Shown piece by piece: positions 1 through 31,540 of a stretch of DNA of 43,926 bases (position 1 is its first letter; each line of letters begins with the position of its first letter). The notes beneath the pieces are model-generated. The model did no database searches, was not told the DNA's origin, and worked only from the letters and a program-made list of their open reading frames with translations. A program made the position numbers and the translations under genes. The DNA comes from Paludisphaera rhizosphaerae (lineage in GTDB: Bacteria > Planctomycetota > Planctomycetia > Isosphaerales > Isosphaeraceae): contig NZ_JAALCR010000041.1 in the NCBI RefSeq assembly GCF_011065895.1, positions 1-43,926 on the forward strand, given 5' to 3'.

Positions 1-1392
1 TTTACCGCTCCCAGCGACTCCAGAGAGCAGCCGAACGCCCGGACCCGACGTCAGCCATCGGACGACCTCTTTCTGCTCAGGGTCGAGCGTCCTGGGCGTT
101 TCTCGAAGGGCTCTCTCGACTCGCTCGGAGGAAACCGAGCTGTCGGGGCCTTGGACGATTCGCTCGACGTCCTGGAGCATCGCCTCCTCGAGCCGCAGGA
201 TTTCCGGCGTCGTGTACCGCATCTCCGTCCGGTCGATGTACCGCGTCCCGCCCTTGGCGTCGGTCACGAGCGTCCCGATGGCGACGAGCTCGTCGCTCCC
301 GAGCTTCTCCTTGACGAGGCCGAGGGCCTCGTCGGCGGCGATGAGGCCCACCGCACGCTCGACGACCGCCTTCGTGAGCTCGGCCTCGTTCCAGTGCGAG
401 AGCTGCTCGGAGAGGGTCTTGACGGCGTCCTGGAAAATCACCTCCTTGCGTTCGGCGACCTGCTCGGGCGTCAGCCGCTCGACCGGTACTCGCAGGTCGT
501 AGAACGCCTCGAGGTCGAAGCCGAACTCACGCCCGACAGCCTGCCACTCCCTGAGGAGCTCGGCCCGCGGCACCTCGGTGTCCTTGGTCCTCCGGGTCTC
601 CAACGCGATGAGGGCCGCGTATTTGGCCGATGCGGCGTCGAGGCTGCCGGCTCGAAGGGTGATGAGCTCGTCCATCTCCGCCTTGCGTTTGCTGAACTCC
701 TCGATGAGCGGCTGAGGGACGCCTTTGATTTCAAACCCGATGCTCGAACCGATTCGCCGCTGCACGACCTCGAAGCCGAGCTCCTGAATCAAGGGGGCGA
801 ACACGGCCCGGTAGACGGCACCGCCCGCCATCTTCCAGTGGTAGAGGTGCGTCGAGTCGATGGCGGTGGTCCTCCCGTCCTCGTGCACGGTGAGGTTCAC
901 GCACAGGGCGTGCGTATGGAGTTGCGGGTCTTTGGCTCGGCTCGTGCCGTGTTCGAACAAGCAGAAGAGAAGGGGGGCCTTGACGAGCGTCTCGCCGTCC
1001 TTGCCGACGCGAGCAAACCCGGCCCTCTGCTCGATGAAGTCCAGGGCCGCTTTGACGGCCTGCTCGTGCTTGATTTCGATGGCCTTCCTCAACGCCGGGT
1101 CGGCCATCGCCCAGAGCACGGAGACCGATTTAGGGGCCGAGAACGTCAGGTCGTGGCCGGGGTTCCGGGTGTCCTTCCCGGCGTTCCTGACGAGGGATTT
1201 GTTCGTCTCGTGATGGAACCCGGCACACAGGCGTTCGACGTGCTCACGCTGGGCTAGGCCGGAAAGGCCGAGCTCCTTGGCCGCGGTGCCGTACCACGTC
1301 GGAGGCGGCTCGCCGCCCGCGGCGTAGTAGTTGATGTTTGCGAGGTCCAGGTAGTAGCCGGGTCCCTGGGCCAGAGGTGCGGCGGACAGCAC
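1..1392 (-). CDS. MobF relaxase, N-terminal part (continues at 43926)
   Basis: N-terminal 464 codons of a TrwC/TraI-type conjugative relaxase, which nicks oriT, binds the 5' end covalently through tyrosine and unwinds the transferred strand. The GTG at 1392-1390 is chosen because it gives V/M-L-S, the usual TrwC start, with GGGGG about 8 nt upstream. Tyrosine pairs sit at residues 13-14 and 22-23. The histidine motif, EHGTSRAKDPQLHTHA, lies near 147-162, with H148, H159 and H161 as likely metal ligands. The frame is open to base 1, where it reads GVAGSGK (458-464), the start of Walker A. The missing T and the rest of the helicase are encoded from 43926 downwards in the same frame. The total is about 863 aa, short for a TraI because only one helicase domain is present. 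Confidence 0.93.
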   Translation of the reverse strand, partial: MLSAAPLAQGPGYYLDLANINYYAAGGEPPPTWYGTAAKELGLSGLAQREHVERLCAGFHHETNKSLVRNAGKDTRNPGHDLTFSAPKSVSVLWAMADPALRKAIEIKHEQAVKAALDFIEQRAGFARVGKDGETLVKAPLLFCLFEHGTSRAKDPQLHTHALCVNLTVHEDGRTTAIDSTHLYHWKMAGGAVYRAVFAPLIQELGFEVVQRRIGSSIGFEIKGVPQPLIEEFSKRKAEMDELITLRAGSLDAASAKYAALIALETRRTKDTEVPRAELLREWQAVGREFGFDLEAFYDLRVPVERLTPEQVAERKEVIFQDAVKTLSEQLSHWNEAELTKAVVERAVGLIAADEALGLVKEKLGSDELVAIGTLVTDAKGGTRYIDRTEMRYTTPEILRLEEAMLQDVERIVQGPDSSVSSERVERALRETPRTLDPEQKEVVRWLTSGPGVRLLSGVAGSGK

Positions 1393-1549
1393 GTGAGGGC
1401 CCCCAAGATTCAAACAAGGTTGAACAATCTGGTATAACCGGACCTCATGGGACGCGAAAGGCCACAAACTGTCGATTATAGACGAACGCCGGATAAGCTC
1501 GCTTGCATCATAGTAGATTAGTACTATGGTATTTTGATATGACAAAATC
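1393..1549. promoter_or_regulatory. divergent intergenic region with small inverted repeat
   Basis: This spacer separates the relaxase (leftward) from the 1550 gene (rightward) and is more AT-rich than its surroundings. It holds an inverted repeat CATAGTA (1509-1515), loop GATTAG, TACTATG (1522-1528). Promoters for both directions are expected here, and oriT is possible because it lies just upstream of the relaxase start, but no nic consensus was recognised. Confidence 0.4.
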
Positions 1550-1780
1550 GTGGAAAGACGACTGACCCCGGAACAGGCCGCACATCTGAGCACGACCGTG
1601 CGGAGCATCATGGGCTACCTTCGCCGATTCGAAGAGCGGCTCAGATACAAGCAGCACGACACGAGCAGTCGGCTGTACGAGCTTGTCGTGGACGCCCACA
1701 AGGCGGTTTACTCGCTGAGCGTGGAGCTCTACTGCCAGATTCACCGACGGGACGCGAGGAAGCCGCGGAAGGACGAATGA
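1550..1780 (+). CDS. small hypothetical protein, first gene of nuclease operon
   Basis: 76 aa, unrecognised. It starts at GTG 1550; the nearby ATG at 1538 runs into an early stop in its own frame. It is predicted mostly helical and charged, has one Cys and no membrane segment, and ends in a basic tail (RRDARKPRKDE). Its TGA overlaps the ATG of the next gene (ATGA at 1777-1780), so the three genes from 1550 to 2525 are almost certainly cotranscribed and translationally coupled. Its function is therefore likely tied to the Cas4-like pair downstream. Confidence 0.7.
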   Translation: MERRLTPEQAAHLSTTVRSIMGYLRRFEERLRYKQHDTSSRLYELVVDAHKAVYSLSVELYCQIHRRDARKPRKDE

Positions 1781-2028
1781 ACAGACCGGACGACCTAGTC
1801 TCAGCATCCGAAATCGCTTCATGGGCCTGGTGCCCCGAGTCGTGGCGACTCGGGAAGCTCGGGGCCGAGCCCTCGAATCGGGCCGAGATGGTCCGCGGCG
1901 AGACGCTCCACGCGGATAAGGCCGACGTCGAGCAGAGCTCACGCTCCGCCCTGGCGTTCGGACGGCTCCTCCTCTTCTGGGCGGTGCTGCTCGCCGCCGC
2001 GGCGTTCGGCCTGGCGGTGCTCCAGTGA
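1777..2028 (+). CDS. Cas4-like nuclease, N-terminal half with membrane segment
   Basis: 83 aa. Residues 10-25 (SEIASWAWCPESWRL) match the start of Cas4/RecB-type PD-(D/E)XK nucleases, where the first cluster cysteine sits in a YCPRRFYL-like motif; C19 is the only Cys here. GETLHADK (41-48) matches RecB motif I (GxxxH), with H45 the likely metal ligand. A hydrophobic segment at about 59-82 then ends the protein. The nuclease core is absent and is supplied by the next gene, which overlaps by four bases (GTGA, 2025-2028). The order of motifs suggests one ancestral protein split between motifs I and II. The family match comes from motif reading and has not been searched. Confidence 0.7.
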   Translation: MNRPDDLVSASEIASWAWCPESWRLGKLGAEPSNRAEMVRGETLHADKADVEQSSRSALAFGRLLLFWAVLLAAAAFGLAVLQ

Positions 2029-2525
2029 CTGAGAAGCTCTTCCTCGTCGCCGCCCTCCTCGGGCTCCTGGGCCTCGTCGTGGTCGTCATCGCGTGGGCGA
2101 GGCGACGCGTCCAGGGCTTCGGGTCCGGCCGAACCGTCGCTCTCGACGACGTGACGCTCTACTCGAAGCGTTACGGCCTGGTGGGGCGTCCCGACCGAAT
2201 CGTGAAGGAAGGGGACGACGTCGTCCCAGAAGAGTGGAAGTCGTCGAGGCAGGTGAGCCACGGGCATCGGCTCCAGCTCGCGACCTATTTCATCCTCATC
2301 GAGGAGAACTACGGCCGCAGGCCGCCCTACGGCTTCGTGGTGCTCGGCGACGGCTCGCGTGTGCGTGTCGAGAACACGGAAGAGCTTTGCTCGGAGGTGG
2401 TCGAGATAGCGGAGCGGATTCGCGAGCACCGGGCCAGGATGGCTGAAGAGATTCCGGTGCAGCAGCCGGCGTGGAAGTGTGAGCGGTGCGGGCAGCGGGA
2501 GAACTGCGGGCAGGCGTCGGGGTAA
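2025..2525 (+). CDS. Cas4-like PD-(D/E)XK nuclease, C-terminal half with membrane anchor
   Basis: 166 aa from GTG 2025. A transmembrane helix lies at about 5-24, followed by RARR-type positive charge. The nuclease core follows: GRPD (54-57, catalytic D57), PEEWKSS (E70-x-K72) and HRLQLATYF with Q84. The C-terminus carries KCERCGQRENC (C152, C155, C161), the three-cysteine spacing of the Cas4 iron-sulfur cluster. The fourth cluster Cys and the motif I His would come from the preceding gene, so the two are inferred to form one composite membrane-associated exonuclease. No cas1/cas2 is nearby, so a CRISPR role is not indicated; DNA processing or defence is more likely. Confidence 0.75.
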   Translation: MTEKLFLVAALLGLLGLVVVVIAWARRRVQGFGSGRTVALDDVTLYSKRYGLVGRPDRIVKEGDDVVPEEWKSSRQVSHGHRLQLATYFILIEENYGRRPPYGFVVLGDGSRVRVENTEELCSEVVEIAERIREHRARMAEEIPVQQPAWKCERCGQRENCGQASG

Positions 2526-3143: not shown

Positions 3144-4046
3144 CTAACCGATTTGTTGGTTGGCAGTTATGTCTGTCAGAAACTCTTTGACGTCTTTCTT
3201 GGATATCACTTGGAAACGAGGCCAAGATGGAAGTGAAGCGATATACACAGCCGCTTTGTCAGCGGTTCGCAGTTTGAAGCTACTCACGCCTTCATGCTCA
3301 CAACGTATGGTGCATGGCTGATTGGAGTAGTGTCTTCCTTTTCGTCCTTCGCCGGTGAACAGAAGGACGGCCTCGGCTTCCTCGACTAGACTAGTGATTT
3401 GAACGGCATCGACTCTGTTCCCGGTGTAATTTCCCTTGGAGGTCCCTTCCAAGGCGATTAGCAGCTGTTCCAATTCTTCGAGCTGGAGCCGTCGAATCTC
3501 AGCGAAACGCTGCTCGGCCTGTTTGATTCGAACGTCTACCTCTTCAGGCGTGAGCTTCGGCCTATCCGGTAAGCTTGGGAAACCATCGTCAATCGCTTTT
3601 CGCAAATCCTTCTCGACTCTCTCTCGCATACCATCGTTAATATCATAGTCCGTACATATAATGAATTGTCGAACTGAGTAAGGTGCGATGTCGATGGGAA
3701 CCAGGTAGGCGGAAGCGACATCGTTCGACCGGAAGGTGATAGCTCGCTGTTCACGTTCTGGAGCTTTACCGGCGAACGATGCGGCGCCGCTCAAGACTTC
3801 TTCTAGGTCGCCCGCCCAGGAGGCTGCCTTCGTTGGGTCGACCGCCACGACCAGGATTCGAGCCCCCGGACCGAAAGAATTCGACAATCCAAGTTTATAT
3901 TGAATTATTAAATCATTGATTATTTCGTCCGCACTGATGCGGTATTTGGCCGTGCCGCGAGGAACTAGCTTGGAAAAAGCATCGCTCGCGGGAACATCGG
4001 AACCACCACGACCCGGAAGTCGTACAAGCCACATCAAAGGGTTCAC
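3144..4046 (-). CDS. hypothetical protein coupled to Tat-exported protein
   Basis: 300 aa, unrecognised. The GTG at 4046-4044 is preferred because it overlaps the upstream gene's TGA (GTGA); a longer ORF to 4292 would bury most of that gene's 3' end. It has a mixed alpha/beta composition. A charged helical stretch around LTPEEVDVRIKQAEQRFAEI, continuing through LQLEELEQLL, could form a coiled coil. No signal peptide or membrane span is evident. Local GC is lower than in the backbone (runs such as ATATTGAATTATTAAATC near 3898-3915), suggesting separate acquisition. Coupling with the upstream gene suggests joint function. Confidence 0.75.
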   Translation of the reverse strand: MNPLMWLVRLPGRGGSDVPASDAFSKLVPRGTAKYRISADEIINDLIIQYKLGLSNSFGPGARILVVAVDPTKAASWAGDLEEVLSGAASFAGKAPEREQRAITFRSNDVASAYLVPIDIAPYSVRQFIICTDYDINDGMRERVEKDLRKAIDDGFPSLPDRPKLTPEEVDVRIKQAEQRFAEIRRLQLEELEQLLIALEGTSKGNYTGNRVDAVQITSLVEEAEAVLLFTGEGRKGRHYSNQPCTIRCEHEGVSSFKLRTADKAAVYIASLPSWPRFQVISKKDVKEFLTDITANQQIG

Positions 4047-5107
4047 GATGCCAAAGCTCCGTTGACCGCTTTCTCGACAGCACAGCGAAGCACCTGGTTC
4101 AACTCCAAGTACGTGGGCACGTAACGTTCGGTGGCGTCGATGTCGAGGAGCGTGCCTTCGGGACTCAACGCCATGTGGAGGTGGTACCCCCAGACACGCC
4201 TGAGCTGGGTATCGTACGCCGTAAAGAGCCAGGCATCGATGGCCGCGTTCTTCGTGTAGAGCGTCGAACCCGTGGGGCTCAACACGGTCCAATCAGCCTG
4301 TTTCCCATGTTGACCGTACTTGTGCCAGTGACCATTTCTCAGGATTTCCCGCTCGTCGGGAGCAAACCCCAACGCATCAGTCTCGAGGCCGTGTCGGAGA
4401 TTGAAGGGCCGGGGCACGGAGAGCGTCCGCTTGACGCGGAACAACGGAGCGTGACCGTCCAACCCCAGGGGCTCGAATCTGTCGAGGACGCTGGGGTTCT
4501 TGCGGTCGCCCAGCGAAATCGGCAGGTTCATCTCGATGCTCGGGAACCGAAGGCTCAACTGCTTGGGAGAAGGGTTCATTTTAAGGGCTTCGGCACGCTG
4601 AAGCCCTATTGTCCGCTCGACCCCTTCGAGTTCTGGCGATGAGTCGATGGAAACGTGTCCTGAGGTGGTCATAATCAACGCGGGGCAGTCCTGGATGTTA
4701 AGCGGCTTCCGAACCGCATCGGCAAGTTCGAGGAAGTTGCTCAGGTCCATGACCGAGGCGTAGTGTTGAGCCGGGAACTTCTTCCTCCAGAATTCGCCTC
4801 GCATCCGCTCGGTCAACGTCGCGACCACGCTTCCGAGTGCCCGGTAAAGCTCTTTCGACATCCCCAGGGCGACGACCCCGTGAATATCTGCTTCGGAGTG
4901 CGGGCCAAGTGCGGGAACCCTGGTTGCGATTTCATCCGGCTCGATGGATTTGACCACGTAGCCCGCTGCTTGCGTCTTCGCGAAGAGCTTTGGAAGCAGG
5001 ATATGCACGGGGTCGCCCTTGCCGAACCAGGGACCGGCGTTTTCGCTGAAGGCGAATGACGAGGCGGCTGAACTCACGGCAAGCCTCATGAAATCGCGTC
5101 TACGCAC
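4043..5107 (-). CDS. putative Tat-exported protein of unknown function
   Basis: 354 aa. The N-terminus MRRRDFMRLAVSSAASSFAF has the layout of a twin-arginine signal: RRRDFM followed by a short hydrophobic stretch. This implies export of a folded, perhaps cofactor-bound protein. No catalytic motif was recognised in the mature part. A region near 280-320 has repeated aromatic residues (YDTQLRRVWGYHLHMALSPE). It is translationally coupled to the 300-aa gene downstream (GTGA). A 57-bp fragment copied from the immA gene lies between it and ardC, so it may have been placed beside ardC by recombination. Confidence 0.75.
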   Translation of the reverse strand: MRRRDFMRLAVSSAASSFAFSENAGPWFGKGDPVHILLPKLFAKTQAAGYVVKSIEPDEIATRVPALGPHSEADIHGVVALGMSKELYRALGSVVATLTERMRGEFWRKKFPAQHYASVMDLSNFLELADAVRKPLNIQDCPALIMTTSGHVSIDSSPELEGVERTIGLQRAEALKMNPSPKQLSLRFPSIEMNLPISLGDRKNPSVLDRFEPLGLDGHAPLFRVKRTLSVPRPFNLRHGLETDALGFAPDEREILRNGHWHKYGQHGKQADWTVLSPTGSTLYTKNAAIDAWLFTAYDTQLRRVWGYHLHMALSPEGTLLDIDATERYVPTYLELNQVLRCAVEKAVNGALAS

Positions 5108-5182
5108 GGAATGGCTACCCCTTCAGGCTCCCCGACTTCGGCTGGGATTCCTTCGCTTTGGCATTGTATCCCTTGTCATCCC

Positions 5183-5239
5183 GACCGCCATCGTGAGCAC
5201 CGACAGGAACTCGCACGACCTCGTCGAGAAGCGGGCGAA
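5183..5239 (+). repeat. 57-bp inverted duplicate of an immA gene segment
   Basis: Bases 5183-5239 are identical to the reverse strand of 7358-7414, inside the XRE-ImmA/IrrE gene, where they encode roughly TAIVSTDRNSHDLVEKRA just after the HEYGH zinc motif. Here the copy is non-coding, between the ardC stop (5246) and the Tat-exported gene, and points the opposite way. It looks like a recombination scar. Confidence 0.9.
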
Positions 5240-5245
5240 TCCGCC

Positions 5246-6235
5246 TCAGGCGTCGGTTCCGCGAGGCTGCAACCCGTGCAAGAGGTCCGCCGCCTTCTCG
5301 GCCAGGGCGGCGGCGACGAATATCGCCCGCTTGTCGTCCTGGAGCACCTTGAGCCAGTGGGCGACGTAGGCCGCGTGGTCCTCGCGGACGACCGGCTCCA
5401 GGTCGAGTTCCGCACACAGGAAGGAGGCCCCGATTTCGGCCACGAGCTCCTCGCGGGCGTACCCCTCGTCGCCGAACCGCTTGCGGCCGAAGTCCCGGTC
5501 GAGGCGGGCCTCGTGCTTCGTCCAGTGCGTCAGCTCGTGGAGCAGGGTGGCATAGTAGCTCTCGGCGTCCTGGAACGCCTCAAACGGCGGCATCTGGATG
5601 CGGTCCTCGTGCTGGTTGTAGTGGGCCGAGGTGCCGCCGTGTCGAACCTCGGCCCTCGTGTTCCGGCAGAACGCCTCGGCGTGCTCGATTCGCTGCACGG
5701 GGTCGAGGCGGGGGGCGGCCAGGGCGTAGAACCGCTCGGGGAGCCCCGCCACCTGCTCGGCGTTGAAGACGGTGTACTGCTTCATGAAGAAGACATCTCG
5801 CTCCTCCTCCGTGCCGTCGTCGTGCTTCTCGGTCTTCGTGAACCGGTCGGCGTAGACGACGGGCGTCCCCTTCGAGCCCGCCTTGACGTGCCCGCCCATG
5901 TCCCTGGCCTGGTTGAAGGTCATCCAGAGCGGGGCCGCGTACCCGTTCGCCACGGCCGACGACCAGAGCAGGAGCACGTTCATGCCGCGGTAGGGCTGGC
6001 CGTTGGCCCGCAGCGGCCGGGTGATGCGGCCGGCGGCGTGCTCGGCGTCCCAGGGCTTCGTCCAGGGCCGGACGCCCTTCTCGAGGTCGGCGAGTATCTG
6101 ATTCGTGACCCGGGCGTAGAGGTCCTCGCGACCGGTCGTCGGCCTCTGGGGCGGGGTCAGGTCGCGGAACGGGTCTGCGTCCTCTCGTGGGGGCTGCAAG
6201 CCCTCCGGATTGGGTTCGGGTCGTCGACTCGGCAT
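5246..6235 (-). CDS. ardC: ArdC-like antirestriction protein
   Basis: 329 aa. The N-terminal domain (about 38-160, from LYARVTNQILADLEKGVRPW) matches the ArdC single-stranded-DNA-binding domain with its conserved RPWTKPW and NGQPYRGMNVLLL. The C-terminal zincin-like domain carries LHELTHWTKHE (HExxH zinc site) followed by REELVAEIGASFL (third-ligand region). In conjugative plasmids ArdC-type proteins protect incoming single-stranded DNA from restriction. It sits third in a leftward cluster after XRE-ImmA and a PIN protein. Confidence 0.92.
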   Translation of the reverse strand: MPSRRPEPNPEGLQPPREDADPFRDLTPPQRPTTGREDLYARVTNQILADLEKGVRPWTKPWDAEHAAGRITRPLRANGQPYRGMNVLLLWSSAVANGYAAPLWMTFNQARDMGGHVKAGSKGTPVVYADRFTKTEKHDDGTEEERDVFFMKQYTVFNAEQVAGLPERFYALAAPRLDPVQRIEHAEAFCRNTRAEVRHGGTSAHYNQHEDRIQMPPFEAFQDAESYYATLLHELTHWTKHEARLDRDFGRKRFGDEGYAREELVAEIGASFLCAELDLEPVVREDHAAYVAHWLKVLQDDKRAIFVAAALAEKAADLLHGLQPRGTDA

Positions 6236-6299
6236 AGGGCCGAACCCATGCCACGACCGGCCGCGGATTTCAAGCGGGGCAGGGGCCTTCAGGGGCCGG

Positions 6300-6812
6300 T
6301 CACGGGAGCAGGTCGCCGAAGCTCAAGAGCTTCGGCTTCTTGAACTGGTGGTTGTCGTGCCAATCCAGCTTGATGGCGTCCGCTTCCGCGACGGTCAGGA
6401 GCCCCGCACGTATCGCCTCGACCACGAGGCCGACGGTGTCGAGGAGCTTGATTGTGGGATATTGGGCGGCCGTCTTCTTCCGTGCCGTGCCGTCGTCCAT
6501 CGCGAGGGGGAGCCCGCGAGCCTGGGCGGCGGCGATGGCCGAGCATTCGCCGTCGCCGAGCACGCGAAGGGCCTGCATCGCGGCGAAGGCCGCGAGCTCG
6601 GCCGGGTCGACGAGCGAGACGACGTGCAATTGGCCGGCCTTCAATGCCAGGTCGAGATTGGCGTACTGGACCGGGTACGAGGAGAGAATCTCGGCCCGCA
6701 CGTCGTCGGTGACGACGAACCGATACGCGGCGAGCCCCGCGAGCAGGTCGACCCGGCCGATGCGGAGGAAGTTAATCAGCGTGGACGTGTCGATGACGAC
6801 TTCGTCGGCCAT
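6300..6812 (-). CDS. PIN-domain protein (DUF3368-like), putative toxin
   Basis: 170 aa. It begins MADEVVIDTSTLINFL, with the first PIN acidic residue at D8. The central GDGECSAIAAA and the later LAMDDGTARK supply the remaining acidic metal ligands expected of PIN ribonucleases. It lies 46 bp downstream of the XRE-ImmA/IrrE gene on the same strand. Such PIN proteins are often paired with HTH-metallopeptidase partners, so the two may form a toxin-antitoxin-like unit. The RNA target is unknown. Confidence 0.85.
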   Translation of the reverse strand: MADEVVIDTSTLINFLRIGRVDLLAGLAAYRFVVTDDVRAEILSSYPVQYANLDLALKAGQLHVVSLVDPAELAAFAAMQALRVLGDGECSAIAAAQARGLPLAMDDGTARKKTAAQYPTIKLLDTVGLVVEAIRAGLLTVAEADAIKLDWHDNHQFKKPKLLSFGDLLP

Positions 6813-6858: not shown

Positions 6859-8088
6859 TTAATCGTAGGCCGCCGTCTGGGCCAGCTCGACGAGTTTTGC
6901 ACCGGAGATGCCGAGCTTCTCGCCGAGGTCGCGGAGGTAGCCGGCCGAGACTTCCTCGCGTTGGAACGCCTCGATGGCCAGGTTCGCCACCTCCATGACG
7001 AGCTCCCGGTCGGGCTCCGATTTCTTCGGCGGATAGAACAGCTCGATGAACTCTCTGGCCGCCGCCCTCTGGGCCTCGTCGAGGAGGGACTCACGCTCCG
7101 CGGGCCGGATGACCCGCAGGTCCCGAAGCCGGTAGACGGCCGACTCGTAGCTGGTCCCGAAATGATGGGCCAGCATGGCGGCGTCCTTGAACGAGATGCG
7201 TTGCGACTTCGGGGCCGCCCGACGCTCGGCGTCCACCTCCTCCTCTCGGGCCACGTCGTAGACGTGCTGGTGACGCCGGCTCGCCCCCCCCTTGTCGAGG
7301 AGGCTCAGGAGCCAGTGCACGCCCGCCTGCGGCATGAGGAACGCCGCGGCGAAGGCGTTCGCCCGCTTCTCGACGAGGTCGTGCGAGTTCCTGTCGGTGC
7401 TCACGATGGCGGTCATGCCCCGGTCGAGGATGGCGTGGCCGTACTCGTGGGCGTAGGAGAACCGCTTGCGGGTCCTCGGGTGGTCCAGCTTGACGATGAT
7501 GATGGACCGCACGGAGGAGTAGCGGAGGAAGAGCCCGGACATCTCGGGCGGCAGGTCGAAGCCCGAGGCCCAAATCCCCTGGGTGTTGATGAGGTCGGAC
7601 ACGTCGGCGATGGGGGCGAACCCGAGCCCGAGCCTGCGACGTTCCTCCTCGGCGACGAGGATGCCCTGCTCGATGGCCTCCTCGGCCCGCTTGGGGGCGG
7701 GGAGGTTGTAGGTCGGCATGGCGATTCGCGGACGCCTGTCGAGCAGGGTCTCGAGCTCGATGGCGATTTGGCAAATCTCCGAGCACCGGGCGACGGCGTC
7801 CTTGACGAGCTGGTTGTCCTCGTAGCCCGGGAGCTGGCGGGCCAGGATGAGGTCGGCCGGCTCGACGACGCTGGCGGGCTCCTCCTCGAAGAAGTGGGCC
7901 ACGGGGCGATGGTAGAGCTTCGCGAACTGCGAGAGCTCGAGGGTCGAGAGCGAGCGTTTGCCCGCCTCGACGGCGACGACGGCGGTCCGAGGGATGCCGA
8001 CCGCCTCCGCGGCGGCTTCCTGGGTCAATCCGCAGTTGGTGCGAGCCTCCTTGAGTCGCCTCCCGATGGTGGTTTGGTCGAAGGCCAT
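6859..8088 (-). CDS. XRE-family regulator fused to ImmA/IrrE metallopeptidase
   Basis: 409 aa. Residues about 8-62 form an XRE helix-turn-helix (IGRRLKEARTNCGLTQEAAA, then AVVAVEAGKRSLSTLELSQF). A long linker leads to the ImmA/IrrE domain with SYAHEYGHAILDRG (HExxH-type zinc site) and AFLMPQAGVHWLL. Related proteins cleave or sense repressors; in this layout the HTH and protease probably control the adjacent PIN gene. A palindrome at 8215-8236 upstream may be its autoregulatory site. A 57-bp slice of this gene is duplicated in inverted orientation at 5183-5239. Confidence 0.9.
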   Translation of the reverse strand: MAFDQTTIGRRLKEARTNCGLTQEAAAEAVGIPRTAVVAVEAGKRSLSTLELSQFAKLYHRPVAHFFEEEPASVVEPADLILARQLPGYEDNQLVKDAVARCSEICQIAIELETLLDRRPRIAMPTYNLPAPKRAEEAIEQGILVAEEERRRLGLGFAPIADVSDLINTQGIWASGFDLPPEMSGLFLRYSSVRSIIIVKLDHPRTRKRFSYAHEYGHAILDRGMTAIVSTDRNSHDLVEKRANAFAAAFLMPQAGVHWLLSLLDKGGASRRHQHVYDVAREEEVDAERRAAPKSQRISFKDAAMLAHHFGTSYESAVYRLRDLRVIRPAERESLLDEAQRAAAREFIELFYPPKKSEPDRELVMEVANLAIEAFQREEVSAGYLRDLGEKLGISGAKLVELAQTAAYD

Positions 8089-11599: not shown

Positions 11600-14500
11600 T
11601 CAAGCCCTCTGAACGGCGAAGGCACGCACGCCGTTCATGCAAAATCCTATATTGAATCGAACGCGACAGTCCTTCGCGACGCTGTCCCACTCCGCCCGGC
11701 TCAAATCGTCCCGGCTGCAATAAATCCTGGCGGAATCGCCAGAACGCGAAATAATGAAGTAATGAGAATCCATATATATGACTTGGCCGATGAATGACTC
11801 CGAGGTTTTGAATCGGAGCCTCGTGCGACTCTCCGGGGACATCCGGTGATTCCTCAAGTCATGAAACACTTCATCGCTCTCTTCAAGCTTGCCCATCAGG
11901 AAAAGCTGTCGGCCGTAAAGGAGTCGCGGTTCTAGCTTCCGGTCGCCAGGACCGAAGCTCTTTTTGAGATAGTGGCTTATCTCCTCGGGTTGCCCCAAAC
12001 CGTGGTCGCTCAGTAGCTTCGCGTAGAGGTAGTGCAGACGTTGGTCGCTTGCTTTCGCGGCGATGCCCTTCCGGAAAATGTCCACGGCCTTGTCGAGATT
12101 CTGCAGCGATTCATAGTGGGCGGCCAATCTAACCGCGATGTGTGATGCACGATTATTGATTTCAAAAGAACGTTCCATCGCCCCGATAGCTCGAGAATGC
12201 TCCGACAATACAGTGGCGAGGTCAGCCTCTGCCTTCAAGAGGAAGGCATTGTCCGAATGCCGTGACATCCCTTCGCGAAGGGTTTTCTCGGCCGCTCTCA
12301 CGAGATGGTCGACCGATTCGTCGTTCGCGTCGTCCGAGTTGAGTTCATCCCTGATTTGGACGGTCTTGATTTTGAGGAGCGTGTAGTAGGGGAAGGGGTC
12401 GTCTCTCCGGGACTTGAGCTGTTCGCAAATCTTGATGGCTTCTTCCAGATGATATCGCTTGTCGAGCGGCTGGGTCGCCGCCTCTGCCCGACGTACGTGC
12501 AGTTCGGCGTGCGTGTGGTGTAGGGCGTTCGACGGTCTCGGCGAGCTCAGAGCTTTCTGGATATACGAATCGGCGAGAGACAGGTTGCCATTCTGCCGCT
12601 TCATTTCATAAATACATTTTTGTTGGAGCAGGTGGGCATTTTCCCCGGTCACCTCCTCTGCGGCTTCGAAGAGTTGGGAAACCATCTGATGGTCCGGGAA
12701 GGTCGTCACGAGCGTCGTGCCGTTCAGGAGCCGCCTGAAGGCCGCATTATCGCTGTTATAGCTCGGGTTGAGGAACCTGATTGCCTTGAGAACTTCGTGG
12801 AAGAGGTCTTCTTTATTCTGAAGCACGGTGCTGACGACCAGTTCGGCGATGTGAGGATGGCGGGCCTTATAGACCATGTCGCCAGAGCCGGTGTCCTTGG
12901 TGGCCGAGATGATTTGTTCCAAGGGCTTGAAAAACGATTTCTCGAACTCCGAGAACGGAAGATTGTAGAGGCGAGAGATGAGTCCCGCCCTCACCGGAGA
13001 GCCGAACTGGTAGAGGAGGCACACGGTCAGGTACATCAACTGGGCCCGATGCGGCGAAATCTGATTGTATTCATCAAGTATGATGTCCTCAAACGGCTTG
13101 CCGAGTGTAGCCTCGTGGAGAGCGACGAGCAGCTGCCGGTCTGCAAGCTCGAGGAAAGCCGCCTGCCTCGCGGAATGCGGGAGCTTTTCGAGCGTACCTA
13201 GCGATTTGTGCGTCTCAAGCTTGGCGAGTAGCCCATCAATCTCGTCCCTTGACAGGTACTTGAGGTCGTAGACGTTGGTAGCCAGGGTAGTCAGCGAGTC
13301 TGGGGCGAGGTTCCATTCGTTCGTTCTGGCCGCTCCCACGACCGTGATTCGGCCTGCCAGCGTGCCGCGTTCATCAAACAGCGAGACGATGTCGCGTCGG
13401 TACTCGACGATGTTGTCGACGAACAAGAAAATGCGTTCGTTGACCTGGTCGGCCAAATTGGAAAGGGCGGCCAGGTTGATGTTGCCGCCGGGTCGTATTT
13501 TGAGGCAAAGCTTGTCGTACTCTCGTGACGCATCCCATGCGAGACGCTGGAGGAAGACCGACTTGCCCGAGCCGGCGTGAGACTTGACCACGATGAAACA
13601 CGAGGCCGACTTCGAGCTGGCCGAACCAGGCAAGATATGTTCAAGCAAAATTGAATCGGTCAAATGCCGTCGGACGTCGAGCTCCTGTTCGACGGCTGAC
13701 CATTCGGAGCTCGTCCCCATGTAGAACTGCTTGGGCTCGATTTTCGCGGCGGGGACGACGGATTTCACATAATCGGCGTCCCTTTCGAGGAACTGGGTCG
13801 TGGCGAAGGGAAGTGTGACGTCCCGCTTGATGAACCGGTCGCTGATAGCCAAATTTCCGATTTCCGACGTCTGTCTGAGACCTCGGAATAATCCGCTAAT
13901 CTGCGTGTCCAGCGTGTCTGCCAGGTCCTCGAACGTGCCGTTGAACGCAGATATGCGAAAGTGCTCCCAATGGGTTTTCTGAATCTCATCGATTCCAAGC
14001 GTCACGAGGAAGGAGCGAGGCGGCGAGGGGATGGCCGCGTGTATTCGCTGAATGAGGCCGAGTAGGTTCGCATCTTGAAGGCTGTATCCAGCGTAGAGGA
14101 CGGGGCGAGTGGCGGCCCAGTTGAATAGGCGGTCGAAGATGAGCTTCCGCCCCTTCTCGTGGGTGTTGTACTGCTCGGTCGTAAGGATGAGCGGGACGGC
14201 CGTATTCGCAACGCGGGTTACACAGCCATGCAGCTTCAGGCATAAGACCGAATTCACGGTCTTCAACTGGTCGTCTGGTCGGTCCGAATCATCTATGGCA
14301 GTGACCAGCTTTTGGGCTGCCGGTTTGTTCTCGTCGTCGTAGGCATCCTCAAGGAGCGTGTCGTAGTTGGTGGTCGCGATTCCGCTCCAACGGAATGCCT
14401 TGAGCCTGTGGTGCGAGGGGCCCGGCTTGAAACCTACTACCGTCTCGGCGACAAATTTTTGAAATGTATATATATCTGATTGGCTAATTGCGTATGCGGA

Positions 14501-14710
14501 TACGAGATTTAGCGGAGATTTATAGTATTTGGATGTGAGAAATTGTTTGGCAATCCTCTCGGCCAGTTCTCCGGCGAGCGGGGGATGTTCGCCCTTTTCG
14601 TTGGTCGCTTCCCTACTGGCCCCGGCTCCCAGCATCAGGACGACGTTGCCGGCCTCAATCTCATTCAGAAGATGCGTTGGAAGTTCGAGCTTCGGCTTCT
14701 TTTTGCCCAC
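11600..14710 (-). CDS. SIR2-STAND NTPase with TPRs and cold-shock-like C-terminus
   Basis: 1036 aa from GTG 14710. The SIR2-like domain (about 10-270) has GAGAS (28-32), ATTNYDTLLEDAY (112-124), LHG (160-162) and GYSLQDANLLG (208-218), matching NAD-binding and catalytic motifs of SIR2 NADases. A STAND-type P-loop follows, SHAGSGKSVFLQRL (377-390), with a Walker B-like IFLFVDNI (427-434). Helical repeats with TPR spacing fill about 690-960. The last 70 residues (FIGQVIYMDSHYFIISRSGD, then CRVRFNIGF) resemble an OB/cold-shock fold. SIR2-STAND proteins such as Avs5 sense phage and deplete NAD. This layout suggests an abortive-infection sensor-effector; the CSD-like tail is a possible nucleic-acid sensor. 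Confidence 0.88.
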   Translation of the reverse strand: MGKKKPKLELPTHLLNEIEAGNVVLMLGAGASREATNEKGEHPPLAGELAERIAKQFLTSKYYKSPLNLVSAYAISQSDIYTFQKFVAETVVGFKPGPSHHRLKAFRWSGIATTNYDTLLEDAYDDENKPAAQKLVTAIDDSDRPDDQLKTVNSVLCLKLHGCVTRVANTAVPLILTTEQYNTHEKGRKLIFDRLFNWAATRPVLYAGYSLQDANLLGLIQRIHAAIPSPPRSFLVTLGIDEIQKTHWEHFRISAFNGTFEDLADTLDTQISGLFRGLRQTSEIGNLAISDRFIKRDVTLPFATTQFLERDADYVKSVVPAAKIEPKQFYMGTSSEWSAVEQELDVRRHLTDSILLEHILPGSASSKSASCFIVVKSHAGSGKSVFLQRLAWDASREYDKLCLKIRPGGNINLAALSNLADQVNERIFLFVDNIVEYRRDIVSLFDERGTLAGRITVVGAARTNEWNLAPDSLTTLATNVYDLKYLSRDEIDGLLAKLETHKSLGTLEKLPHSARQAAFLELADRQLLVALHEATLGKPFEDIILDEYNQISPHRAQLMYLTVCLLYQFGSPVRAGLISRLYNLPFSEFEKSFFKPLEQIISATKDTGSGDMVYKARHPHIAELVVSTVLQNKEDLFHEVLKAIRFLNPSYNSDNAAFRRLLNGTTLVTTFPDHQMVSQLFEAAEEVTGENAHLLQQKCIYEMKRQNGNLSLADSYIQKALSSPRPSNALHHTHAELHVRRAEAATQPLDKRYHLEEAIKICEQLKSRRDDPFPYYTLLKIKTVQIRDELNSDDANDESVDHLVRAAEKTLREGMSRHSDNAFLLKAEADLATVLSEHSRAIGAMERSFEINNRASHIAVRLAAHYESLQNLDKAVDIFRKGIAAKASDQRLHYLYAKLLSDHGLGQPEEISHYLKKSFGPGDRKLEPRLLYGRQLFLMGKLEESDEVFHDLRNHRMSPESRTRLRFKTSESFIGQVIYMDSHYFIISRSGDSARIYCSRDDLSRAEWDSVAKDCRVRFNIGFCMNGVRAFAVQRA

Positions 14711-30394: not shown

Positions 30395-31540
30395 TCAGCC
30401 CGGGAACTGGACCGTAACCGTCCCTTCATCCTCAGGGACATCCTGGTTCGCGATACCCATGGCGAAGTTGAGGCGGGCCCGAACCGCTTCGGGGCGGACC
30501 CCCGAGAGGTCGGCGATTTCTTTGAGGGACAGCTTGTTGGCGAGCACGGCTTCGTCAATCAACTGTTCGAAGCGGGTCGCCCGGTCGGGACGCACAACGC
30601 CGGGCTCGGCTGTCTTCCAGCCGCGGCGGGAGAACTCGACCCAGAGCATCTTCGCGTCCTGCTTCGAGATGAACGCCAGCTTCTCAGCCCGGTAGACCAT
30701 CGCGGCCAACGAGATGCCGAACCGTTCCTTGAACTGCACCAGGCGAACCATCGAACGGCCCTCGAAGGCACGCTTGAGCTGGCTGCTCGGAAGCAGGAAG
30801 TGGGAGGCGAAGTCGAAGGCCCTAGACTCAAGTGCTTTGCTCTCCTGCTCGTCGCTGTCGCAATCGCCGAAGAGCACGTGGCCGAGCTCATGGGCCGCGT
30901 TGAGCCGGGACCGGTCGTTCGAGACGCTGGGGTTGAGGACCACGATGTACTCGTCGCCGTACTTCGCCGCGAGGCCGTCGATGCGAAGGTCGGTCGGGTT
31001 TTCGATGGTGCGGATGCCGAAGCTTTCAAGCACCTCGACGACGCTGGCGATGGGCTCGTCCTCGCGGTCGATGCCGAGCTTGCGTCGCGTCTCTCGGGCC
31101 AGTTCGTCGGGTTTGACCCCGTCCTTGGCCCGAAAGTCTTTGATGGTCGGCTTGAGGGGCCGCTTGAGCCGTTGTTCGAGGGTGACGTAAGCGTCCACCC
31201 AGCGTTGTACGTCGGCTTCGAAGCGGTGCATATCCGCCATGCGGACCTTGGATTTCAAGTTCCTATAGCGAACGCCCGTCAGGCATTTGCCGTGCTCCAG
31301 GAACCAGTTGAGAGGCCGGTCGTAAAGCTCGGCTAGGGCGGCGATGACGTCGAGCGGAGGGGTACTCCGACCGCTCTCGTAGTTAGCAATGGTCGCGTGG
31401 GAGATAGGGAATCGACGCGAGAGCCTCGTCGCGACGGCACGGGTAGACATCCCGGTCAAGGTTCGTGCCGCCTTCAGCTTGTTTGACAAGCTCGCCCGCA
31501 CATCGTGCCCCTCGCTGATGCGTAGAGGTTGGCTGGCCAT
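30395..31540 (-). CDS. XRE-family regulator fused to ImmA/IrrE metallopeptidase 2
   Basis: 381 aa. The XRE HTH is near 17-72 (LSNKLKAARTLTGMSTRAVA, then SHATIANYESGRSTPPLDVI). The ImmA/IrrE domain carries LNAAHELGHVLFGDCDSDEQ (HExxH zinc site) and FASHFLLPSSQLKRAF. It is only distantly related to the 6859-8088 protein. TTTTACA repeats at 31561-31567 and 31591-31597, 30 bp apart just upstream of the ATG, are candidate autoregulatory sites. It is probably coexpressed with the 179-aa gene. Confidence 0.9.
   Translation of the reverse strand: MASQPLRISEGHDVRASLSNKLKAARTLTGMSTRAVATRLSRRFPISHATIANYESGRSTPPLDVIAALAELYDRPLNWFLEHGKCLTGVRYRNLKSKVRMADMHRFEADVQRWVDAYVTLEQRLKRPLKPTIKDFRAKDGVKPDELARETRRKLGIDREDEPIASVVEVLESFGIRTIENPTDLRIDGLAAKYGDEYIVVLNPSVSNDRSRLNAAHELGHVLFGDCDSDEQESKALESRAFDFASHFLLPSSQLKRAFEGRSMVRLVQFKERFGISLAAMVYRAEKLAFISKQDAKMLWVEFSRRGWKTAEPGVVRPDRATRFEQLIDEAVLANKLSLKEIADLSGVRPEAVRARLNFAMGIANQDVPEDEGTVTVQFPG

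Follow-up and report, generated by a model that had tools for sequence, protein, structure and literature searches.

Do two small overlapping genes of the planctomycete Paludisphaera rhizosphaerae encode a single Cas4-like nuclease in two membrane-anchored pieces, or are they the remains of an ordinary Cas4 gene that has been broken? The question comes from the window analyzed here, a whole stretch of 43,926 nucleotides (contig NZ_JAALCR010000041.1 of assembly GCF_011065895.1). A first-pass annotation, made without database searches, had described one nuclease there as divided by a membrane hairpin. That reading is supported by what follows; the physical assembly of the two proteins, their shared Fe–S cluster and DNA cutting remain inferred.

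Arrangement of the Two Genes

ORF A (positions 1777–2028, plus strand) encodes 83 amino acids from an ATG start. It contains the N-terminal segment of a Cas4 protein, with Cys19 and motif I (G41xxxH45), and then a C-terminal transmembrane helix (residues 64–82, positions 1966–2022, plus strand; Kyte–Doolittle hydropathy 2.64) that ends one residue before the C-terminus. ORF B (positions 2025–2525, plus strand) encodes 166 amino acids from a GTG start. It begins with a transmembrane helix (residues 5–23, positions 2037–2093, plus strand; hydropathy 3.13), which is followed by a positively charged ARRR stretch and the Cas4 PD-(D/E)XK core. The core has D57, E70-x-K72, Q84-xxx-Y88 and three cysteines, Cys152, Cys155 and Cys161. 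The start codon of B overlaps the stop codon of A in the four bases GTGA (2025–2028, plus strand), and translational coupling is inferred. The first-pass annotation had placed the first cysteine and GxxxH in A, motifs II and III and the other three cysteines in B, a four-base overlap between them and the helices at the junction. All of this held, including the positions.

It had also reported an uncharacterised 76-aa gene coupled upstream. This ORF (1550–1780, plus strand) does overlap A, by ATGA, but its membership in the system failed: no tblastn match to it was found in the other 42 of the 43 loci examined. It was dropped as a partner because it is unconserved, and it is probably not part of the A/B system.

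Assignment to the Cas4 Family

B alone matches the TIGR00372 cas4 model at 70.9 bits (cut-off 65) over model positions 57–178. A alone matches no family strongly; its match to TIGR00372, over positions 3–50, is 13.6 bits and under the cut-off. When A and B are joined without their helices, the score is 85.2 bits over positions 3–178 of 180. A control in which A was swapped for a hand-made scramble and joined with B gave 70.6 bits. The Bacillus pair, joined likewise, scored 78.6 bits over positions 1–179. By hhalign, the A profile falls on the N-terminus of an ordinary Cas4 profile (columns 2–47 of 194, E 4.4e-5, probability 69), and B falls on the next stretch of it, columns 64–189 (E 1.3e-20). 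The ordinary profile consists of five sequences, both Cas4 and Cas4-like, and the E-values apply to one comparison.

An AlphaFold model of B, made from a two-sequence alignment, has a mean pLDDT of 80.3 and a pTM of 0.61, with a helix at residues 2–32 and then the nuclease core. Its top Foldseek matches are the Cas4 entries 7mi5, 7mi4 and 8d3q (E 1.9e-6 to 3.4e-6, TM by query 0.55). After Cas4 come MGME1, ACE1, Dna2, RecE and, more weakly, AddAB. The AF2 model of A is one continuous helix, residues 35–82, spanning motif I into the membrane segment, and can be given only limited trust (pLDDT 78.0, pTM 0.43). A prediction placing the motifs in unrelated folds would have refuted the divided nuclease. 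With Cas4 entries as the best matches to the B model, and with the A profile aligning to the N-terminus of Cas4, no refutation came from this check.

The residues C19, G41, D57, E70, K72, Q84, Y88, C152, C155 and C161 are present in all 20 aligned planctomycete pairs, and H45 is present in 19, with Gln in its place in L006. Seven rows that are broken, truncated or duplicate (L013, L017, L019, L021, L034, L039 and L041) were excluded from this alignment. The RecB motifs I (GxxxH), II (D) and III (ExK) and the QxxxY motif are near-invariant across the 20 planctomycete proteins, 49 other split proteins and 43 fused proteins, with E70 absent in four of the fused proteins. The A parts of the archaeal proteins were chosen by profile, so the counts of A conservation are biased upward.

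By its sequence, the A/B pair belongs to the Cas4 family (COG1468/TIGR00372). The four cluster cysteines are present; the Fe–S cluster and a DNA nuclease activity are inferred. One criterion of the family, that of a single soluble polypeptide, does not hold, since the pair consists of two ORFs, each with its own predicted transmembrane helix. The maximum 19-residue hydropathy of four ordinary Cas4 controls is 0.86–1.36.

Predicted Membrane Topology

In the window's own A protein, the 15 residues preceding the helix include two Lys or Arg, and none follow it. Across 22 pairs, the 15-residue flanks of the A helix contain 74 Lys and Arg before the helix and 17 after, and those of the B helix contain 4 before and 84 after. 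For 48 split A proteins, the counts are 164 before and 3 after. Because of this bias, the nuclease is placed on the cytoplasmic side. The charges fit a hairpin that keeps the nuclease parts of both chains in the cytoplasm and leaves a cut loop of a few residues outside, a topology predicted from sequence.

The Split Form in Planctomycetes

Matches to B at E ≤ 0.001 were found in 28 of 99 relatives searched, a count that includes ordinary Cas4s. For the planctomycete set, we required B to match at 80 bits or more, which gave 29 distinct loci and left out weaker B fragments such as L040. All but one of these loci fall in the window's own family, Isosphaeraceae, and the remaining one (L004) is in another family of the same class. 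A match to A lies just upstream of B in 26 of the 29, the three without one being L020, L022 and L038. The two-ORF layout is thus common to 26 of 29 loci, at about 47–60% identity to B. The divided reading would also have been refuted by homologs with a single intact frame. A and B share one ORF in none of the 27 listed planctomycete rows (one locus is listed twice, as L021 and L041), so the check brought no refutation within the window's clade.

Helices at the junction are predicted in most rows. Of 27 rows, 25 have one closing A; the exceptions are L013 and L017, whose A frames are broken. Of 30 rows, 26 have one opening B; it is missing in the fragments L020, L022 and L038 and falls just under threshold in L037. 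Among the 26 loci with A, a B start codon occurs at −4 relative to the A stop in 19 and within −10 to +3 in 24.

A profile search of the phylum with B at 1e-15 gave matches in three of 392 sampled genomes: the window's own, G111 and G075. The G075 match is an ordinary Cas4 without helices. G111 belongs to another planctomycete family, and its pair (L085, contig 17) is split, with an in-frame TAG inside B. This TAG might reflect decay or recoding. For the 392 sampled genomes, it is shown that the pair is rare in the phylum beyond the window's family. A genome-contig scan returned one relative only.

Relatives on Bacterial Plasmids

Relatives are carried on Singulisphaera pSINAC03, Paludisphaera PALBO2, Planctomyces SH-PL62 pPL62-2 (where the copy is broken) and three B. 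subtilis plasmids. One of the three B. subtilis plasmids, CP120602.1 (L047), was examined. Its pair is split, at 5679–5924 and 5929–6417, with a helix in each chain, and a DinG/XPD-type helicase is encoded two genes upstream of A (Helicase_C_2, 1.5e-44). The region 3336–6657 of this plasmid forms an operon-like series of the helicase, a 77-aa protein, A, B and a gene annotated as Hfq.

Phages and viruses were dropped as carriers of the pair. No match appeared in a phage collection with the Bacillus B or the window B, and none appeared in IMG/VR with the window B, the B profile, the fused profile or the Thermoplasmata B; the IMG/VR scans rely on short conserved peptides and may overlook relatives.

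Split and Fused Forms in Archaea

The same split occurs in a Thermoplasmata genome (L003), where B has no canonical start before its helix except a TTG inside the helix. In Thermoplasmatota, 183 of 292 genomes match at 1e-10. We classified 91 Thermoplasmatota loci, consisting of the 30 best, 60 hand-picked from the next listed, and L083; this is not a random sample. They comprise 47 split loci with one helix per chain, 43 fused single chains and one with B only. The first-pass annotation had raised the search for fused versions with two transmembrane helices, and these 43 are the result. Their helices are inserted between motif I and motif II, the same place as in the split form, and number two in 11 proteins, three in 3, four in 26 and seven or eight in 3. 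The last three, L116, L129 and L168, have seven or eight predicted helices within the Cas4 fold.

In a FastTree tree of 116 sequences, the 20 planctomycete pairs (support 0.998), 45 archaeal split pairs (0.93) and the 43 fused proteins (0.82) form clades. L124, L175, L085 and the Bacillus pair branch between them. The deep nodes and the root are weak (0.29–0.93, the L124/L175 pair excepted). The split is therefore old and stable, although the tree leaves the order in which the split and fused forms arose unresolved.

At the expected B start, an ATA overlaps the A stop (as ATAG or ATAA) in 22 of the 47 archaeal split loci, for example in L098, L105, L131, L132 and L136. No ATG, GTG or TTG occurs from −13 to +21 around the A stop in 22 of the 47. 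An SD-like G[AG]GGTG lies just upstream in 23 of the 25 loci with ATA or TTA, versus 3 of the 22 others. A non-canonical B start or an unusual decoding at these junctions is possible.

Genomic Surroundings

The window's contig is plasmid-like. It encodes a MobF relaxase (TrwC, 249 bits), a TrwB-type coupling protein, an RPA replication initiator, a tyrosine integrase and ArdC. The A/B pair adjoins the 5′ end of the relaxase gene, a neighbor outside the system (1–1611, minus strand) whose true start, judged by eye, is probably a GTG near 1393. The relaxase frame is open across the contig ends (1 and 43926); if the molecule is circular, it has 936 aa from 1611, within the range of the frames of many relatives. 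Because the frame stays open over the joined ends, the contig may be a complete circular plasmid, and no exact terminal overlap of 16–200 bases was found between those ends. Beside the relaxase there is a single imperfect palindrome at 1507–1538, and inverted repeats are otherwise weak. A comparison for conserved intergenic DNA (oriT) beside the relaxase gave no match to other loci.

The association with MobF relaxases extends beyond the window. Of 30 B loci, 8 have a MobF relaxase no more than 5 kb away (0.08 expected; maximum 3 in 20,000 trials) and 14 have one within 25 kb (0.42 expected; maximum 5 in 20,000 trials). The expectation is for random placement in the same genomes, the 30 loci are the 29 above plus the fragment G031:C1, and the distances were read by hand. 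In the other 16 loci, no MobF relaxase is within 25 kb on the locus's own contig; short draft contigs may conceal such neighbors. No universal partner gene other than A recurs in the 29 planctomycete regions. ArdC homologs occur in the regions around L045, L049 and L067, and methylases lie beside the pair on two named plasmids.

Elsewhere in the window are other genes of some interest. A 1036-aa protein with SIR2-like, STAND NTPase and TPR domains is encoded at 11603–14710 (minus strand), and we take this to be a candidate anti-phage defense gene. The same element carries two separate regulators with HTH and IrrE-like (Peptidase_M78) domains, at 6862–8088 and 30398–31540 (both minus strand).

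The archaeal surroundings differ between groups. In 10 of 30 loci, all split, the gene order is the C-terminus of SMC, a kleisin-like protein, A, B and TyrRS. One SMC protein (4.6e-26) and one TyrRS protein (2e-41) were tested and are clear matches. The kleisin-like protein is weak, matching PF02616 at 2e-4 and 5e-3 in two of six proteins tested, both under the cut-off. A FEN1-like gene is near 6 of the 30 loci (one tested, XPG_I 1.9e-8). In a second archaeal group, an aRF1-like gene is beside 7 of the 30 loci (one tested) and an RLI-like gene, named by eye, is beside 6. Since the archaeal contexts are unlike one another, a single common role is unproven.

Cas1 is found once in the host genome, on another contig (C9), beside an ordinary Cas4 without a hydrophobic helix, and no cas1 match was found on the window's contig. 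The first-pass annotation had stated that no cas1 or cas2 accompanies the pair; this result covers cas1 alone. As a Cas4 homolog outside CRISPR loci and on a mobile element, the pair meets the criterion for solo or MGE-Cas4.

Relation to Known Nucleases

Solo-Cas4 or MGE-Cas4 (COG1468, TIGR00372, PF01930) is the nearest known system in both motifs and setting. It shares GxxxH, D, ExK, QxxxY and the four cysteines and lies outside CRISPR loci, often on mobile elements. The difference is that solo Cas4 is one chain, whereas A and B are two, with a transmembrane helix in each. Solo Cas4 proteins are widespread and include a clade on Burkholderiales conjugative plasmids, and their function was described as uncharacterised (PMC5704561). 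The CAS-Cas4 proteins of CRISPR adaptation modules (8d3l, 7mi4, 4r5q; SSO0001, 4ic1) share the fold of B and the active-site motifs, but they are single chains and by rule stand beside cas1 and cas2, unlike this split pair with no cas1 on its contig. ACE1, an Argonaute-associated Cas4 family protein (9iac, 9iab), has the Cas4-family fold and is a single chain in the structure list. The nuclease domains of MGME1, Dna2 and AddAB have the RecB-like nuclease fold and provide a model for single-strand or end processing; they are not known to be membrane-embedded or to be divided inside that fold.

A split or membrane Cas4 is not described in the open-access literature searched, preprints and supplements being outside its scope. 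The main text of PMC5704561, supplements apart, does not contain "transmembrane", "split", "planctomycet" or "thermoplasm". The passages of PMC12669027 on Cas4 and on transmembrane proteins describe no such form, and those passages of PMC11541004, on plasmid leading regions, that bear on the matter do not mention Cas4. It is likely, within that open-access scope, that the two-piece membrane Cas4 is real, stable and apparently undescribed.

A Proposed Two-Chain Nuclease at the Membrane

The sequences themselves show the two halves with their motifs and helices, the overlap of the genes and the conservation of the pair in both bacteria and archaea. That they amount to a two-chain membrane Cas4 is very likely, with the assembly, the Fe–S cluster and the activity inferred. 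In the proposed mechanism, A and B would be the halves of one Cas4 nuclease whose motifs I and II are separated by a transmembrane hairpin, and the gene would be split in the loop of that hairpin. A would be a tail-anchored and B a signal-anchored subunit, with the nuclease parts inferred to be cytoplasmic. Pairing of A and B through their helices would complete the active site, bringing H45 together with D57, E70 and K72; this is inferred, as only single-chain models were made. One Fe–S cluster would likewise be built from Cys19 of A and the three cysteines of B. On the simplest account, the enzyme would be active only where A and B meet at the inner membrane face. It is inferred, less surely, that single strands or DNA ends would be processed there.

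What its settings have in common, with conjugation genes in some, SMC genes in others and a helicase on the Bacillus plasmid, concerns the movement or processing of DNA. Overall, a split transmembrane-hairpin Cas4 nuclease that processes DNA at the membrane is the explanation we prefer, with moderate confidence. For the MobF plasmids, we favor an action on DNA that is entering the recipient, or being established in it, after conjugation. This specific role at DNA entry is tentative, and on balance we would not yet lean toward accepting it. In one archaeal group, the nuclease may serve chromosome maintenance with SMC and kleisin.

Alternative Explanations

One alternative is that the pair is an ordinary Cas4 gene broken by a frameshift, through sequencing error or as a pseudogene. 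Some loci are indeed degraded: A is frameshifted or truncated in L013 and L017, B has in-frame stops at three places, and the degraded Planctomyces SH-PL62 copy adjoins an IS701 transposase. However, most loci with the two-ORF layout have both helices and coupled starts, and the split is also found in Bacillus and archaea with its motifs conserved. Because the split recurs, we regard the frameshift reading as all but excluded. Programmed frameshifting or readthrough, by which A and B would be made as one polypeptide and mature as a single-chain hairpin, is unlikely. In its favor, B reads in the −1 frame relative to A at 37 of the 47 archaeal split junctions and at 22 of the 24 planctomycete junctions that have a start codon close to the A stop, many archaeal junctions lack an ordinary start codon as noted above, and fused forms exist naturally. 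Against it, a −1 frame is also expected from a plain ATGA-type overlap, and the frame varies, being +1 in 8 and 0 in 2 of the 47 archaeal loci and 0 in 2 planctomycete loci. The planctomycete and Bacillus pairs have ordinary start codons, the SD-like sequence precedes nearly all archaeal junctions with ATA or TTA, and the sequence at the stop is not consistently slippery. A CRISPR connection, in which this Cas4 serves adaptation in trans or acts as an anti-CRISPR decoy, is very unlikely. Interference with host CRISPR has been reported for phage Cas4-like proteins (cited in PMC5704561), and the host genome does carry cas1 and an ordinary Cas4. But cas1 is not matched on the window's contig, and no cas gene was recognized among the recurrent archaeal neighbors, although no targeted cas search was made there. 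By inference, a Cas4–Cas1–Cas2 complex would not easily accommodate a membrane tether and an inserted hairpin. From its context, then, the pair is very likely not a Cas4 of CRISPR adaptation.

Two further alternatives concern function, and both are possible. The pair could be a plasmid weapon, a membrane nuclease that destroys incoming phage or plasmid DNA in superinfection exclusion or defense. The predicted cytoplasmic position of the nuclease at the membrane, the strong MobF link and the methylases beside the pair on two plasmids speak for this, as does the finding that loss of a Cas4-like gene in Synechococcus favored conjugation or maintenance of an RSF1010 plasmid (PMC10653904). In the same study, however, no strong effect on the conjugal transfer of integrating plasmids was seen for any gene; from these results, we take it that Cas4-like nucleases can matter for plasmid establishment rather than for entry itself. 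Also against a weapon, the archaeal copies lie amid housekeeping genes (SMC, TyrRS, aRF1-like and RLI-like), no immunity partner recurs, and PADLOC matches are limited to Cas4, Cas4/Cas1-fusion and DruK nuclease models. Alternatively, the pair could be a membrane-tethered repair or replication nuclease, processing ends or flaps like Dna2 or AddB, that is archaeal housekeeping in nature and was recruited by plasmids. The SMC, kleisin-like, A, B, TyrRS order, the nearby FEN1-like genes, the DinG/XPD-type helicase of the Bacillus plasmid and the presence of MGME1, Dna2 and AddAB among the fold matches agree with this. On the other hand, the pairs in planctomycetes have a patchy distribution and are frequently carried by mobile elements, and 20 of the 30 archaeal loci lack the SMC–kleisin–TyrRS order. 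Neither exclusion of competing DNA nor repair or replication falls far behind the role at DNA entry, and the evidence separates the three poorly.

Implications for Solo Cas4

A bolder form of the preferred reading, that of a split membrane Cas4, can be stated, and it could as easily prove wrong as right. The pair would represent an old branch of Cas4, embedded in the membrane and found both in archaeal genomes and on conjugative plasmids of bacteria. Neither membrane-anchored chain would hold a whole catalytic site or Fe–S cluster; each would supply, in trans, what the other lacks. DNA cutting would be tied to the membrane, and there to condensin (SMC–kleisin) in one lineage of archaea and to conjugation among planctomycetes.

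The SMC-linked gene order in some archaea and the conjugation-linked order in planctomycetes narrow the possible roles of solo Cas4. If the proposal is true, an active site and an Fe–S cluster built between two membrane proteins would be an unusual form of nuclease control, and the nuclease would work only where both subunits are inserted in the membrane.
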